64,000 nucleotides of DNA from Phycisphaerae bacterium (lineage in GTDB: Bacteria; Planctomycetota; Phycisphaerae; UBA1845). Below, piece after piece: positions 10,841-55,063 of this stretch (within the stretch, counting starts at the first letter, position 1; every line of letters starts with the position of its first letter). Both the position numbers and the translations under genes were made by a program. The DNA lies in NCBI GenBank assembly GCA_029260165.1, contig JAJDDT010000028.1, positions 1 to 64,000 on the forward strand, read 5' to 3'. A model generated the notes under the pieces. The model was not told the origin of the DNA, made no database searches, and saw only the letters and a program-made list of their open reading frames with translations.

Positions 10841-10905
10841 CGGTGCTTCGTTGCTCGTCGATCGATGGTTGGGTGGCCCATGGCTTTAGCCGTGGGGGAC
10901 TCGAT
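10841..10905. repeat. REP/BIME-like half unit, copy 1, in the nuoB-nuoC gap
   Basis: GGTGCTTCGTTGCTCGTCGATCGATGGTTGGGTGGCCCATGGCTTTAGCCGTGGGGGACTCGATT; nearly identical over about 60 nt to the copy at 30130. Confidence 0.85.
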
Positions 10906-10940
10906 TGCTGATGATGTATCAAGCCGTCCGTCATGAGGCA

Positions 10941-11459
10941 CTAGTTCAACACCTCCTCCTTCACACGCGAAATTGGATCCTTCGCACGCGTCTGATGCCT
11001 GATCTTGTCCTGCAAACGCATCAGTCCCTCGATCAACGCTTCAGGCCTCGGCGGACAACCAGGCACATAAACATCCACAGGCACCACCAGATCAACACCC
11101 TTGACCACATGATATCCATGCTTGAAATAAGGCCCGCCACCAATCGTGCACGCACCCATCGCGATCACATACTTCGGATCGGGCATCTGGTTGTACAACC
11201 GCTTCAGACGACTAGCCATCTTGTACGTCACCGTACCCGCCACAATCATCAAATCCGACTGCCTTGGCGATGCGCGAAACGCACCTGCCCCAAACCGGTC
11301 AATATCAAACCGCGATGCACCCACCGCCATCATCTCAATCGCGCAACACGCCAACCCAAACGTCATGGGCCAGATACTGTTCTGCCGTCCCCAGTTGATC
11401 GCCCAATCCAGCGAGGTGACGATCAAACCCTCCTCAAACTTGTTGTCAATCCAACTCAT
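10941..11459 (-). CDS. nuoB: NADH-quinone oxidoreductase subunit B
   Basis: [36 protein letters not shown] motifs (4Fe-4S N2 ligands). Confidence 0.97.
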
Positions 11460-27900: not shown

Positions 27901-28260
27901 CGTCCCCAAAACGCTGAATCTGCAAAAAAATTTGCCCTCTTCACCGGTGAGATGCCCCAATCGCCGAACACTGACGGTGGAAAAAAGACGCTGTCAACCG
28001 AATTCTGAAACCATTGGCCGAACGATTCAACCGTCAGTGAAAATCGACTTCAGCCGTGGGTCAAATCACCCTCGCCGTCCCATAACAAAACTCTTGAAAA
28101 ACGATCCCTGTTTAAGGAGAATGGCGGCTGCAGGCATCGGGCGACATAGACTGACATATCCGGGAATTTCAATAACCGCATGTTCGCGCCGGATGAGGTG
28201 GGACATGTTTGCGATTTTGCAACCGAAGACACGAAGCGACCATTGTCGCGGAGGACAAAA

Positions 28261-30051
28261 ATGACGACCAGATATTCGACGTGGATTGCAGCCATCGCTG
28301 CTGTCATTGTAATCTCAGCCGACGCATCCGCGCGGTTGCCCGGCACCCTGAATTTCGCCGACGTGACCGCCACCAATGTCGATCAGAGCACCCTCGACGA
28401 CGGCGAGAAGGAGGTCGACTACGGCGACTTCGACAACGATGGCGACCTCGATGTGGTCGTCGCCAACGGTCAATCCGACTTTGGCGCCCGTCGAAACAGA
28501 TTGTATCGCAACGACGACGGGCTTATGCAGGAGATCAGCGGTAGTCCGATCGTCCCCGGGTTCACCAGTTCCGACGTCACACGCAATGCCTTCATGCGTG
28601 ATTACGACAACGATGGCTGGCTTGACCTCATCGTCGTCAACGATAACAACAGCGCCGGAGACGCAGGCCGAACCAAAATCTACATCAACAAGCAGCAGGA
28701 CGGACAGTTCCTGCGCTTCGACGAGGAGGGACTCCAGCGACTCGGGTCTGGGACAGGTGGTGCTGCGTGCAGCGGTGTTTCCATCGACAACGACAACGAC
28801 GGCGACATGGACCTTTATGTGGGAAACTATCCCGGACCAAGCCAGGATACGATGTACTTCAACGATGGGAACGGAAACTTCACCAACGTGACCGCGACCA
28901 TGGTCCCCGGCGACGGTGACTATACCGTCGACGTTGCATCAGCCGACCTCAACAACGACGGCATGCTCGACCTGATCATCGCAAACCATGGCTCTAACTG
29001 GATATACTACAACAACCTCAACAACGCCGGATCCCAGGTCGGCGACTACAGCTACAGCGGGAGCAGGCAGTTGCTCGCCGGTGGCCATGCTTCCGAAAAC
29101 GCCCTTGAACCGGGCGATTTCGACAACGACGGCGACCTCGATCTGTACCATAGTCAGGGACAGGGCAACGGTGATCTCGTGCTGGTCAACGAGGGCAATC
29201 TCATCAATGGTCAGGTCCAGTGGTCCGCCATAGCAAGCCTGCCGCCTCAGGTTCGCACCACCACTTCCCAAAAAGCAACCGTCCTCGACCTGAACCACGA
29301 CGGTCGTCTCGACATTTTCGTGATGGCAGGAAGCTCTCGTCCGACGGTCCTGCGAAACACCACGGTCAATGGAAACATTACCTTCGTCGACTGGACTCCG
29401 GGAAATGCGTTCGACAATGACGAGTCCGGCTGGCATGCCGCCGCTTTCCACATCAACGACGACGAATGGGAAGATATTTTCCTCGGCGGTTTCCAGGGCG
29501 ACAAACTGTTTGTCCAAACCGACTCGATCGAATGGAACGAGGCTGACCTCTCCGGCGGAAATATCCCCGGTTTTCACCATTCCGACCCCGTCGCCATCGT
29601 CGGCTCGGTTAGCGACAGTGACACCTACAACATCACCGGCGTCGGTGCCGACGACGTCATGTCCGTGGTGCTGAACACCTACAACAGCTGCGCCGACCTC
29701 AGGCTCGACATCCTCAATTCGAGCAACGCCGTCATCGCCTCATCGGACCGCGGCGAGGTCGGCATCGAAGAGGCTTTGCAAATCAGCACACCAAACACGG
29801 CAGGACTGAAGGTCCGGGTAACGGTCAACGGCGTTTGTGGCGACGTTGACAGCGACGGTGATGTGGACGTCAATGATTTCGACGCGCTCAACGACTGTCT
29901 CAACGGTGTCGGTGCAAGCTGCGACGAATTCGATTTCGACGGTGACGGTGATGTCGATTTCGCCGACGTCGCCGGGTTCCAGATCAATCACTCAGGCCGG
30001 GATGTCGACGCCTCTGCCCAATACATCCTGGAAATCCTGACGCGCAACTAA
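28261..30051 (+). CDS. secreted FG-GAP/VCBS-repeat protein with C-terminal dockerin-like Ca-binding pair
   Basis: signal peptide; at least six DxDNDGDLDxxV repeats; C-terminal DVDSDGDVDVNDFDALNDCL...DFDGDGDVDFADVAGFQINH. Confidence 0.88.
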   Translation: MTTRYSTWIAAIAAVIVISADASARLPGTLNFADVTATNVDQSTLDDGEKEVDYGDFDNDGDLDVVVANGQSDFGARRNRLYRNDDGLMQEISGSPIVPGFTSSDVTRNAFMRDYDNDGWLDLIVVNDNNSAGDAGRTKIYINKQQDGQFLRFDEEGLQRLGSGTGGAACSGVSIDNDNDGDMDLYVGNYPGPSQDTMYFNDGNGNFTNVTATMVPGDGDYTVDVASADLNNDGMLDLIIANHGSNWIYYNNLNNAGSQVGDYSYSGSRQLLAGGHASENALEPGDFDNDGDLDLYHSQGQGNGDLVLVNEGNLINGQVQWSAIASLPPQVRTTTSQKATVLDLNHDGRLDIFVMAGSSRPTVLRNTTVNGNITFVDWTPGNAFDNDESGWHAAAFHINDDEWEDIFLGGFQGDKLFVQTDSIEWNEADLSGGNIPGFHHSDPVAIVGSVSDSDTYNITGVGADDVMSVVLNTYNSCADLRLDILNSSNAVIASSDRGEVGIEEALQISTPNTAGLKVRVTVNGVCGDVDSDGDVDVNDFDALNDCLNGVGASCDEFDFDGDGDVDFADVAGFQINHSGRDVDASAQYILEILTRN

Positions 30052-30129: not shown

Positions 30130-30262
30130 TGGTGCTCCGTTGCTCGTCGTTCGACGGTTGGGTGGCCCATGGCTTTAGCCGTGGGGGAGTCGAATCCAAA
30201 CCAGCCATCGAGCCCCACCTCTAAAGAGATGGGCCATCCGTATGGAGGTGGCCACTCATCTT
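30130..30262. repeat. REP/BIME-like element, copy 2 (two inverted hairpin units plus tail)
   Basis: GGTGGCCCATGGCTTTAGCCGTGGGGGAGTCGAA ... ATCGAGCCCCACCTCTAAAGAGATGGGCCATCC + tail ATGGAGGTGGCCACTCATCT. Confidence 0.88.
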
Positions 30263-38257: not shown

Positions 38258-38312
38258 GCGGTGCTATCGGACGGGTGGCCCATCGCTTCAGCGGTGGGGG
38301 AGTCGAATCGTT
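38258..38312. repeat. REP/BIME-like unit, copy 3, upstream of truncated RAYT
   Basis: GCGGTGCTATCGGACGGGTGGCCCATCGCTTCAGCGGTGGGGGAGTCGAATCG. Confidence 0.85.
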
Positions 38313-38346: not shown

Positions 38347-38586
38347 ATGCCCGCGCATCTGAGACGAATCAACGAACCTGGACACGTCCATTTTTGGACA
38401 ATTTCATGCCACCGCCGCCTCGGTTTCTTCCATCACGAAGGCATGAAAAAGGTCGTCATCACCGCACTGCAACAGCTACGATCGAAATTCGGAATCTGCC
38501 TCGTTGGTTACGTCGTCATGCCGGACCATGTGCACGTCTTGCTCTACCCACACAAGCAAAGCGCCGACCGGGTGGCCCACCGCTAA
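38347..38586 (+). pseudogene. truncated REP-associated tyrosine transposase (RAYT, IS200-like Y1 family)
   Basis: GHVHFWTISCHRRLGFF...VGYVVMPDHVHVLLYPHK (HUH motif HVH); homology ends exactly at a REP palindrome; no downstream half in frame. Confidence 0.8.
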
Positions 38587-38600
38587 AGCGATGGGCCACC
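38571..38600. repeat. REP-like palindrome at the truncation point of the RAYT gene
   Basis: GGTGGCCCACCGCTAAAGCGATGGGCCACC, near-perfect 30-nt palindrome. Confidence 0.9.
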
Positions 38601-48420: not shown

Positions 48421-49443
48421 GTGCCGACACTTGTAACCGGTGCGACAGGATTCGTCGGGTTGAACCTGGTTCGGTCTTTGACGGGATCGGGGGAGAAAGT
48501 CCGCGCGCTGGTTCGCAGGTCTTCGCCACGGGAACATCTGGAATCGGATATGGTGGAATTCGCGGTGGGGGATGTGACGGATGGGGCGTCCGTGCGTGCG
48601 GCGATGGAGGGGTGTGACCGGGTGTATCACCTGGCGGGCTGGGTGCAGGTCACGCCCTGGGGCGGGGACGTGGCGAGGCGTGTGAATGTCGAGGGGGTGG
48701 AGAATGTGTGTTGTGCGTGTGTGGCGTGCGGTGTGAAGCGATTGGTGCATGTGAGTTCGATAGCGGCTGTCGGTCATGGACCGATGAAATCGCCGGCGGA
48801 CGAGGAGGCGATGTGGAATTTCGGATCGTTGCGGGCACCGTATTACGATACGAAGCGCGAGGGGGAGATGGTCGTGCGTCGGTACGTCGGGGATGGATTG
48901 GATGCGGTGGTGGTGAATCCGGGTTATGTGGTTGGTCCTTTTGATGTCAGGCCGACGAGTGGACGTGTGATCCTGCGGGTGGCGGCGGGCAGATTGCCGG
49001 GGGTGCCGTCGCGGGGCGGGATTGCGTTTGTGGATGTACGTCAGGTGGTTGAGGGGATGCGTGCGGCGATGGATCGGGGGAAAACGGGGGATCGCTATGT
49101 TCTGGTTGGGGAGAACATCACCTACGCGGATTTTGGTGCTCGGATTGCGCGGATTGTGGGTGTGCGTGGTCCGCGGTTTCGCCTGCCCTATTGGGTTTTG
49201 TGGCCTGGGGCGGTGGTTTGCGATGTGGTGGCGCGGTGGAAACCGTCGGCGTTTGCTGATGCGAATTCGGCGATTTTGCGCACGGGTTTTTGTGATCAGT
49301 ACTTGAGCGGTGAGAAGGCGTATCGCGAGCTGGGGATTTCGCGTTGGCCTGTTGATCGGGCGATCAGTGATGCGTTTGAGTGGTTTCAACGGGTGGGGTA
49401 TGTGCGTCGTGCGGGCGATGGCTGGTCGAGCGACCTGATTTAG
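48421..49443 (+). CDS. NAD-dependent epimerase/dehydratase (HpnA/dihydroflavonol-reductase-like SDR)
   Basis: TLVTGATGFVGLNLVRSL; VYHLAGWVQ; YYDTKREGE; GTG start. Confidence 0.9.
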   Translation: MPTLVTGATGFVGLNLVRSLTGSGEKVRALVRRSSPREHLESDMVEFAVGDVTDGASVRAAMEGCDRVYHLAGWVQVTPWGGDVARRVNVEGVENVCCACVACGVKRLVHVSSIAAVGHGPMKSPADEEAMWNFGSLRAPYYDTKREGEMVVRRYVGDGLDAVVVNPGYVVGPFDVRPTSGRVILRVAAGRLPGVPSRGGIAFVDVRQVVEGMRAAMDRGKTGDRYVLVGENITYADFGARIARIVGVRGPRFRLPYWVLWPGAVVCDVVARWKPSAFADANSAILRTGFCDQYLSGEKAYRELGISRWPVDRAISDAFEWFQRVGYVRRAGDGWSSDLI

Positions 49444-49453
49444 AGCGTTGATG

Positions 49454-49581
49454 CCCGTCGTTTGATGGTTGGGTGGCCCATGGCTTTAGCCGCGGGGTAG
49501 TCGATTTCACGCCGGCAATCGAGTCCCCCACCTCTAAAGAGGTGGGCCACCCATCCGTAATGAGGTGGGCTACCCATCTGA
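49454..49581. repeat. REP/BIME-like element, copy 4 (two inverted units plus tail)
   Basis: GGTGGCCCATGGCTTTAGCCGCGGGGTAGTCGATT-N10-AATCGAGTCCCCCACCTCTAAAGAGGTGGGCCACC plus tail ATGAGGTGGGCTACCCATCT. Confidence 0.9.
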
Positions 49582-49958
49582 CTTGGTTAACCTCACCAGC
49601 CTGTTTTTCAGGTCTTTTCGGAGCGGATTCGGTCTGGATTCTGCTCCTTCTTCTTTCAAATTTCTTTCAAATTTTTCTGCATTTGTTGAGTGCGGCTGAG
49701 TTCGTCCTGCGGATCTGGTTTGTGGGGGATGCTGCGCTGGCGGTGTCAGAAAATGTCACGCCCGATTGGGGTTGTCTGGTGGATGGATGCTTCTGGTCCG
49801 TCGGCGGAGGCGATAGAGCGGTTTCGTTGTGAGTGTAGCGGTCAGGGCAAACTCGCATGGTTTGGTCTTCCCGTCACCCACAAGGGGTGACGCTACATCA
49901 GGATTGGGAACGTTTCAGGGGAATTCATCAGTCGGGTTCATTTGGGTCGGGATTGGCG

Positions 49959-53150: not shown

Positions 53151-55063
53151 TGTGCGGGATCGCGGGTTGTTTTGATCGGTCGGGTGGACGGTTGCGTGAG
53201 GCGACGGCGGCGGTGCAGGCGATGCGTCATCGGGGGCCTGATGAAACGGGGTTCTGGTCGGGGGATGGGGTGCATCTTGGGATGTGCCGGTTGGCGATCA
53301 TCGCGCCGGAGGGGAACCATCAGCCGGCGAGCAACGAAGATGGCAGCGTCCGCGTCGTGTTTAACGGGCAAATCTACAACCATCCGGAATTGAAGAGGGA
53401 ATTGGAGGGGGCGGGTCATCGGTTTGCGTCGGAGGGGGATTCGGAGGTGATTGTTCATGCGTATGAGGAGTGGGGGTTGGGTTTCCTCGAGCGCGTGAAC
53501 GGGATGTTCGGGATTGCGATTTACGATGGTCGTGAGGAGCCGACGCTGATTCTGGCGCGGGATCGGGTGGGGATCAAGCCGTTGTATTACTGGTTGGATG
53601 ACGGTTTGGTTGCGTTCGGGTCGGAAGTGAAGGCGGTGTTGTCGTTTCTGGATACGGTGCCTGGGGTGGATGCGGCGGGGATGCTGTCGCTGCTGACGTT
53701 TGAGTACATCCATGGGCCTAACACGTTGTTTGACGGGGTTCGGAAGTTGGAGCCTGGGCATGTGATGAGCGTGACGCGTGGGAGGGTGGAGACGAGGCGG
53801 TATTGGCAGATGCCAACGCGGACGCGTGCGATGACCGAGGCGTCGGCGGTGGCTGACCTGCGACGGTTGATGTCGCAGGCTGTTGAAGCGCGGATGATTA
53901 GTGACGTGCCGTTGGGGGCGTTTCTGAGCGGCGGGATTGATTCGAGCATTATTGTGGCGCTGATGTCGCAGTGCAGCGATCGTCCGGTGGAGACGTTTTC
54001 GGTCGGGTTTGAGGATGCGACGTACAACGAGACGGGGTATGCCCGTATGGTGGCGGAGATGCACGGGACGAAGCATCACGAGATCATGCTGAAGGTGGAT
54101 TGGGATGAGTTCATGAAGCCTGTGGAGCTGATGCTGGATGATCCGATTGGGGATTTTTCGGTGTTTTCGACGTATCTGGTGAGTCGGGCGGCGCGGGAGC
54201 ATGTGACGGTGGTGTTGAGCGGGGATGGTGGGGACGAGTTGTTTGGTGGGTATGACACCTATTTGGCGGATAAGGCGGCAAGGTATTACGGGTTGCTGGG
54301 GTCGATGGTGACGAAACGGTTGGTGCCTGGGTTGATGTCGCGGGTGCGTCCGTCGCGGGCGAAGAAGGGGTTGGTGAATCGGGCGAAGGTGTTTTCGGCG
54401 GGGGCGTCTCGTGCGGCGGAGTTGGGGCATGTGCGGTGGATGATGTTTGCGGATGAGCGGATGCGGGCGGGGTTGTTGACGGAGGATTTCGCGGCGACGG
54501 TGGGCGAGATGGACCCGGCGGATCATGTTCGCGGGATCGCGGATGGTTGCGGGTTTGATGATCCGATGGCGCGGGACATGTATGTGGATGCGTCGTTCTA
54601 TCTGCCGGAGAATATATTGCACAAGGTGGATCGGACGAGCATGGCGACGTCGTTGGAGACGCGGGTGCCGATGTTGGATCATGGGGTCGTGGAGCTGGCG
54701 ATGTCGATGCCGGCGGGTTTGCGGATTCGGGGATTTCGGCGGAAGGATATTTTGAAGCAGGCGTTTGGGGATTTGCTGCCGCCCGCGATTTTGAAGCGCG
54801 GCAAGGAGGGGTTCAGCACGCCGATGAAGCATTGGTTGCGGGGGCCGTTGAAAGGGATGATGGGGGATGTGTTGAGTGAGACGCGGTTGAAGCGTGATGG
54901 GTATTTCAAGGCGGGGGCGGTTGAGGGGATGAAGCGGGCGCATCTGGCGGAGGAGGCGGACCATGCGCATGTGCTGTGGTCGATGATGCTGTTTTGTATG
55001 TGGGTGGATCGGTATCAGTCGGTGGGGCGGACTGCCCGGCGGGCGGAGGTGGTGGGGTCATGA
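53150..55063 (+). CDS. asparagine synthase (glutamine-hydrolyzing)-like amidotransferase
   Basis: MCGIAGCFD (Cys2 nucleophile), MRHRGPDETGFW, VFNGQIYNHPELK, LSGGIDSSIIVALM, LSGDGGDELFGGYDTY; TGATG coupling. Confidence 0.95.
   Translation: MCGIAGCFDRSGGRLREATAAVQAMRHRGPDETGFWSGDGVHLGMCRLAIIAPEGNHQPASNEDGSVRVVFNGQIYNHPELKRELEGAGHRFASEGDSEVIVHAYEEWGLGFLERVNGMFGIAIYDGREEPTLILARDRVGIKPLYYWLDDGLVAFGSEVKAVLSFLDTVPGVDAAGMLSLLTFEYIHGPNTLFDGVRKLEPGHVMSVTRGRVETRRYWQMPTRTRAMTEASAVADLRRLMSQAVEARMISDVPLGAFLSGGIDSSIIVALMSQCSDRPVETFSVGFEDATYNETGYARMVAEMHGTKHHEIMLKVDWDEFMKPVELMLDDPIGDFSVFSTYLVSRAAREHVTVVLSGDGGDELFGGYDTYLADKAARYYGLLGSMVTKRLVPGLMSRVRPSRAKKGLVNRAKVFSAGASRAAELGHVRWMMFADERMRAGLLTEDFAATVGEMDPADHVRGIADGCGFDDPMARDMYVDASFYLPENILHKVDRTSMATSLETRVPMLDHGVVELAMSMPAGLRIRGFRRKDILKQAFGDLLPPAILKRGKEGFSTPMKHWLRGPLKGMMGDVLSETRLKRDGYFKAGAVEGMKRAHLAEEADHAHVLWSMMLFCMWVDRYQSVGRTARRAEVVGS

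Follow-up and report, generated by a model that had tools for sequence, protein, structure and literature searches.

Inverted REP doublets, most of them within IS630-type MITE ends, in a Phycisphaerae genome

The BIMEs of E. coli are inverted pairs of REP units with two different stem types (Y and Z units) and are not known to carry IS630 ends. Inverted pairs of two different stem types were also observed in the family described here, but with another stem sequence and loop, and with a GTGG foot instead of GTAG. REPIN and REP-RAYT systems (PMC3116915; Nunvar et al. 2010, PMC2817692; PMC3733652) likewise have a GTGG foot with a palindrome, inverted doublets of fixed spacing that are commoner than expected, and RAYT genes flanked by inverted REPs. 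Here, however, most doublets lie within IS630-type MITE ends, and the RAYT copy in the window that shares this REP subtype is truncated. REP, REPIN and RAYT systems are already known in Planctomycetes as well, with REP families reported in R. baltica (Di Nocera et al. 2013, PMC3733652). The "bizarre" double repeats of Pseudomonas putida and P. fluorescens, in which degenerate GTAG-1 units are joined to unrelated stem-loops (PMC3733652), resemble our elements in being amplified and in combining REP units with a second, unrelated inverted repeat; those repeats flank RAYT-like genes and their second module has no stated origin, whereas here it traces to IS630. IS630/Tc1-mariner MITEs (PMC2170065) share with our elements terminal inverted repeats common to an autonomous IS630-family element, CTAG or TA at their ends, a length of about 150 bp and a non-coding character, but the interior here is a REP doublet and not a deletion remnant of the parent element. 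The literature searched gave no description of an IS630 MITE with a REPIN interior, the Pseudomonas double repeats coming nearest. By themselves the hairpins fit ordinary REP biology; what is unusual is the IS630-MITE/REPIN hybrid.

The window, a stretch of 64,000 nucleotides of contig JAJDDT010000028.1 (Phycisphaerae bacterium, assembly GCA_029260165.1), had been described in a sequence-only reading as containing four copies of a BIME-like dispersed repeat (at 10841, 30130, 38258 and 49454), two of them with an inverted second unit and a shared tail of about 20 nt. A search with the pattern GGTGGCCCA-N4-TTTA-N4-TGGGGGA, allowing up to 3 mismatches, gave 7 matches in the window and 0 in 100 dinucleotide shuffles used as a control. 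All four copies were recovered, the inverted second units at 30130 and 49454 were both present, and alignment of the copies showed that their shared flanks are real. The list had omitted one inverted copy, at 38576-38599 (minus strand), for 7 sites in all (Table 1); the pattern matches were placed at 10872+, 30161+, 30211-, 38274+, 38573-, 49472+ and 49524-. A further match resembling the left flanking module, at 53315-53339 (minus strand), fell within a coding ORF resembling asparagine synthase and was taken as chance.

Table 1. Repeat units, flanking modules and RAYT fragment located in the window.
Feature	Positions	Strand	Basis or remark
Left MITE end (left module, IS630-type) beside REP pair	30131..30161	+	5 mismatches to 31-nt module consensus; past the common tip, module homologous to REP-free MITE ends of G031
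REP unit, TGGC type, GTGG foot and 9-bp stem	30162..30185	+	Pattern and covariance model
Inverted partner REP unit, CCTC type in its TCTC/GAGG variant, ATGG foot	30214..30237	-	Pattern and covariance model
Left MITE end of copy at 10842-10943	10842..10872	+	4 mismatches to consensus
REP unit, TGGC type; copy without second REP	10873..10896	+	Pattern and covariance model
Right MITE end; CTAG at 10941-10944 is the right insertion boundary	10904..10942	+	Empty-site comparison with G001
REP unit, TCGC type, upstream of RAYT fragment	38275..38298	+	Pattern and covariance model
Truncated RAYT gene, 79 aa	38347..38586	+	PF01797, NF047646, identity to L033
Inverted "double-foot" REP unit terminating RAYT fragment	38576..38599	-	Pattern search
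Left MITE end, abutting TAG 49441-49443	49442..49472	+	6 mismatches to consensus
REP unit, TGGC type	49473..49496	+	Pattern and covariance model
Inverted REP unit, CCTC type	49527..49550	-	Pattern and covariance model
Decayed third unit in tandem, GTAGCCCACCTCATTACGGATGGG	49550..49573	-	Alignment of units

Across the whole genome (4.43 Mb) the pattern matched 123 times at up to 1 mismatch (reversed control, 0) and 167 times at up to 3 mismatches (reversed control, 32). A genome-wide count with a covariance model, which the sequence-only reading had proposed as a check, gave 132 matches at E <= 0.01 using a model built from 63 distinct units, so the family is not restricted to a few loci. The description as a BIME-like REP family was thus borne out, with inverted doublets and more than 120 copies genome-wide. 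For the analysis of structure we used 112 non-redundant units, taken from the window and from the sequence stretches around listed copies; the sample covers these stretches only, and copies of the highest divergence (2-3 mismatches) are under-represented in it. The REP family was carried by 28 of 60 related genomes, with copy numbers among relatives from 0 to 452. No Rfam family matched the window when gathering thresholds were applied.

The REP unit consists of GTGG followed by CCCA-NNNN-T(TT or TC)A-NNNN-TGGG, usually with GGA.TCGA next. In its hairpin form the GTGG foot is unpaired, the stem has 9 bp and the loop 2 nt (TT or TC). The foot was present in 103 of the 112 units (GGTGG when the preceding G is read with it). 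Classical REPs have a GT(A/G)G foot that immediately precedes a GC-rich, short-looped palindrome, and these units belong to that class. A total of 38 adjacent pairs were observed among the 112 units, and all 38 were inverted, with feet outward and a spacing of 52-55 nt, mostly 54. Each of the 38 was also a heterodimer of one TGGC-type and one CCTC-type unit (one window pair carrying the TCTC variant); the window pairs of this form are 30162-30237 and 49473-49550. These inverted doublets of fixed spacing are REPINs and are BIME-1-like. The unequal arms of the pair plausibly prevent the formation of one long unstable palindrome. Some units, including the one at 38576, were symmetric and had a "double foot", a form that could come from central deletion of an inverted pair (Corneloup et al., PMC6006769); central deletion of a REP pair may likewise have produced the double-foot single units here. 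At some loci, e.g. contig C102, the unit edge was expanded in tandem.

Selection on the hairpin had been argued in the sequence-only reading from four stems in the window copies, an argument that we rejected as weak. TCGC/GCGG and CCGC/GCGA, given as separate stems, are one stem read on opposite strands, and TGGC/GCCG and CCTC/GAGG, listed alongside them, are not independent variants but make up one element together, each as a fixed arm of it. The window therefore proves little about covariation, since its four stems reduce to two arms and one stem seen on both strands. In addition, TGGC/GCCG, which had been called paired, includes a T.G pair, a wobble in RNA and a mismatch in DNA. The covariation itself was real across the 63 distinct units, drawn from this genome and its relatives: standard pairs were found in 96.1% of pair cells vs 80.7% after shuffling, and 81 cells had changed on both sides vs 31 in shuffles. 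The covariation score was 0.405 vs 0.132 shuffled (0 of 500 shuffles reached it), with slid controls at 0.02-0.12. Compensatory stem change across these units is strong and genuine, and its absence had been named as the finding that would count against the element. Fully complementary inner stems of 17 types were observed across the sampled genomes. Divergence among 30 aligned pairs was about 1% in the inner stem, whose positions were not fixed by the search pattern, about 3% in the tails and 22% in the spacer, while the left flanking module, in the 18 aligned pairs having it, diverged by 14%. The hairpin is kept while the remainder of the element decays.

Searching the genome with PF01797 gave five loci, one of them in the window. 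Its product, MPAHLRRINEPGHVHFWTISC...VMPDHVHVLLYPHKQSADRVAHR followed by a stop, is an N-terminal half that includes the HVH motif (the HuH half only). An alignment of 75 aa with L033, an intact RAYT on contig C47, showed 60% identity, and the fragment scored 45.6 bits against NF047646 (REP-associated tyrosine transposase), over profile positions 2-70 of 146. It lies between the inverted REPs at 38275 and 38576, and its stop codon is inside the latter. The copy listed at 38258 is a real REP whose adjoining truncated RAYT gene had been overlooked. L033 reached 93.6 bits against NF047646 (NCBIfam cut-off 80), matched the solved TnpA_REP structure 4ER8, and has the sequences PDHIH and YCHKNP, corresponding to the HuH motif and the catalytic Tyr motif. 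The REPs flanking L033 agree with the family in foot and outer stem; their loop is TCT and not TTTA, and only three TCT-loop copies were present in the genome.

A RAYT at 40% identity or more was found in 19 of the 60 genomes, and many of these RAYT orthologues in relatives were bracketed by GTGG-CCCA...TGGG hairpins. In G040, which belongs to another family, the intact RAYT L114 has TTCA-loop REPs on both sides and the genome holds 147 dispersed matches; the RAYT of G001 has one loop type on each side. Intact genes in relatives and the truncated gene of the window are therefore flanked by inverted REPs of the same family. An association of RAYT with REP abundance, also proposed as a check in the earlier reading, was significant over all 60 genomes (14/24 vs 5/36, p=0.0005) but not within the family alone (13/22 vs 4/14, p=0.10), and both values ignore phylogeny. 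The closest named relatives of the RAYTs were from MAGs of Phycisphaerae and other Planctomycetota.

Alignment of the pairs with their flanks revealed two flanking modules: a left one, AGTGCTTCGTTACTCGTCGTTTGATGGTTGG, next to the TGGC unit, and a right one, TGTGCTGATGATGCATCAAACCATCTGTCATGAAGCACT, next to the CCTC unit. The two terminate in inverted repeats (AGTGCTTC...GAAGCACT). The left end was present on 24 of the 38 pairs and the right end on 23, with both on 13 and neither on 4, so that 34 pairs had at least one end. With its REP pair the MITE measures about 150 bp. The right end of the 30131 copy was not recognisable. The same ends were found in the relative G031, where CTAGTGCTYYRTYR had 95 occurrences, many of them in inverted pairs separated by about 154 bp, and no REP was found inside the G031 MITE elements inspected. 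At locus L241 of G031 the same ends lie on either side of a 1.2-kb stretch whose two overlapping frames match the IS630 transposase profile at 65.7 and 121.7 bits; this split suggests programmed frameshifting. The genome studied here holds an IS630 copy (contig C80) that is 88% identical to that of G031 and has two stop codons. Composites and the autonomous L241 element have terminal inverted repeats in common, and in each of four genera the match between the left modules of composites and REP-free MITE ends continued past the tip common to both (0 of 5000 shuffles in every case). G023 likewise has REPs between such ends, in composites of 155 bp and, with a double-foot REP, of 105 bp; the composite in G027 measures 171 bp, and the composite junctions correspond in G000, G023 and G027. 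The BIME-like description, although right about REP doublets with compensated stems, was incomplete in that the shared flanks are IS630-type MITE ends.

Two further sets of loci were noted among the relatives. Loci L241-L249 of G031 represent a REP-free IS630-type MITE family of about 154-170 bp with 95 CTAGTGC ends. At loci L216 and L217 of G040, heterodimer pairs of this 54-nt kind were observed without CTAGTGC ends, sharing a different right flank, CCAAGGTTC...CTGTCCAAACAT.CTTGCAGGCAG, which is possibly another carrier element.

IS630 reportedly prefers CTAG as its target (Tenzen and Ohtsubo 1991). Insertion of IS630-family elements occurs at TA, with duplication of the TA (Feng and Colloms 2007, PMC2170065). 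The region of the 10842-10943 copy aligned on both sides to contig C12 of G001, a genome of the same genus, at 75% and 82% identity; in G001 the aligned blocks are separated by 23 bp and the element is absent. The right boundary reads GGA[CTAG]TTGAGTGCC in G001 and GCA[CTAG]TTCAACACC here; the left side was not alignable. For the 30130 and 49454 copies no empty site was found in G001, the flanks being on different contigs or aligned on one side only. CTAG was present at both ends of the G031 copies, and in the genome studied here, where the ends are decayed, a TA stood where expected in 11 of the 29 left ends and in 10 of the 22 right ends. The 49442 element abuts the TAG (49441-49443) that terminates ORF 48421-49443; homology to G001 extends as far as 49441. 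The element ends at 49441-49443 and 10941-10944 both coincide with TAG stops of adjacent ORFs, a coincidence to be expected if a stop codon is often part of a CTAG insertion site.

We consider it probable that the family is a two-layer non-autonomous mobile element, with a RAYT-class REPIN as its inner layer and, in most pairs here, an IS630-type MITE as its outer layer. The anatomy, copy number, fixed heterodimer spacing and covariation of the units support this directly, as do the RAYT association, ends that are homologous to those of REP-free IS630-type MITEs, and the one contrast between an insertion and an empty site. Against it stand the decayed state of the ends in this genome, the single REPs and 4 pairs outside recognisable MITE ends, the non-significant REP/RAYT association within the family, and the TCT loop of the REPs beside the intact RAYT. 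The composite would have been spread by an IS630 transposase, now decayed here, that pasted it in trans at CTAG or TA sites, and the REP hairpins would be single-strand substrates of a RAYT; other TnpA_REP proteins recognise their REPs through foot, stem and loop (PMC8266576). Movement of a doublet by a RAYT predicts strong conservation of both REPs (Bertels and Rainey, PMC3116915), and RAYT activity, or a function of the hairpin at the DNA or RNA level, may preserve the stems while the remainder decays. We give roughly even chances to the more specific proposal of a stable hybrid, in which the REPIN is the interior of the MITE, with junctions corresponding in at least three genera, and in which cut-and-paste disperses the element and a single-strand system or host selection maintains the hairpins.

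A plain family of RAYT-mobilised REPINs, with flanks merely co-duplicated with some of them and an incidental likeness to IS630, appears unlikely. It would accommodate the copies outside recognisable MITE ends, namely single REPs (TCGC and others) and 4 of the 38 pairs, as well as the widespread RAYT genes with flanking REPs in relatives and the pairs of equal spacing in G040 that are without CTAGTGC ends. However, 34 of the 38 pairs carry a MITE end, these ends match REP-free MITEs and the IS630 element in G031, the junctions correspond in the three genomes named above, and the right boundary of the 10842 copy is at CTAG. We think it quite improbable that the repeat is primarily a functional RNA or DNA element kept by the host (an mRNA 3'-end hairpin, a regulator or a protein-binding site), with mobility only historical, given its patchy distribution among relatives and the lack of an Rfam match. 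Such a function would be in keeping with stems far better conserved than other parts of the same copies, and with the placement of all window copies between genes that look plausible, two copies sitting right at stop codons, although the stop-codon position is equally given by CTAG insertion sites that contain TAG. Copies were also under-represented in ORFs (35 of 80, vs 87% of random positions), by a test that is crude because long spurious ORFs are frequent at this G+C. The least probable reading, to which we give very little credence, is that the covariation is an artefact of a few copied subfamilies with unconstrained pairing: two stem types account for most units here, each type forming one arm of the pair, and copy counts therefore overstate the independent changes, but the variety of complementary inner stems across genomes, the failure of shuffles and slid controls to reproduce the pairing, and the unequal decay inside one set of copies all speak against it.

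How REPs disperse is still debated because RAYTs look domesticated and movement is seldom observed. A REPIN within an IS630 MITE would give REPs another way to disperse, one that can be tested. The copies also contain their own control for selection on the hairpin, in that their REP stems and MITE ends decay unequally. The family also documents REP/RAYT elements on a large scale in a planctomycete-type lineage, where only brief descriptions existed.

Several minor observations were made alongside the main family. ORF 28180-30051 (plus strand), just upstream of the 30130 element, contains repeated DFDNDGD-like coding motifs at 28426-29968 (FG-GAP or dockerin-like). A third REP-like family, GTAGGGCAGGTGCTCGCACCTGCC, was represented by a few copies in the sampled stretches of the same genome (L033, L050, L056, L067, L075), with none in the window. 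A second REP family, GTAG-CGTCACCC-CTTGT-GGGTGACG, was observed in the window at 49872-49896 (minus strand), with about 20 sites in the sampled stretches of the same genome and about 30 short matches in G001. The Y1 transposase gene L031 (contig C98), which has one in-frame TAG, looks like part of a second REP-RAYT unit because it lies between inverted copies of this GTAG family (L031:1399+ and 1976-).
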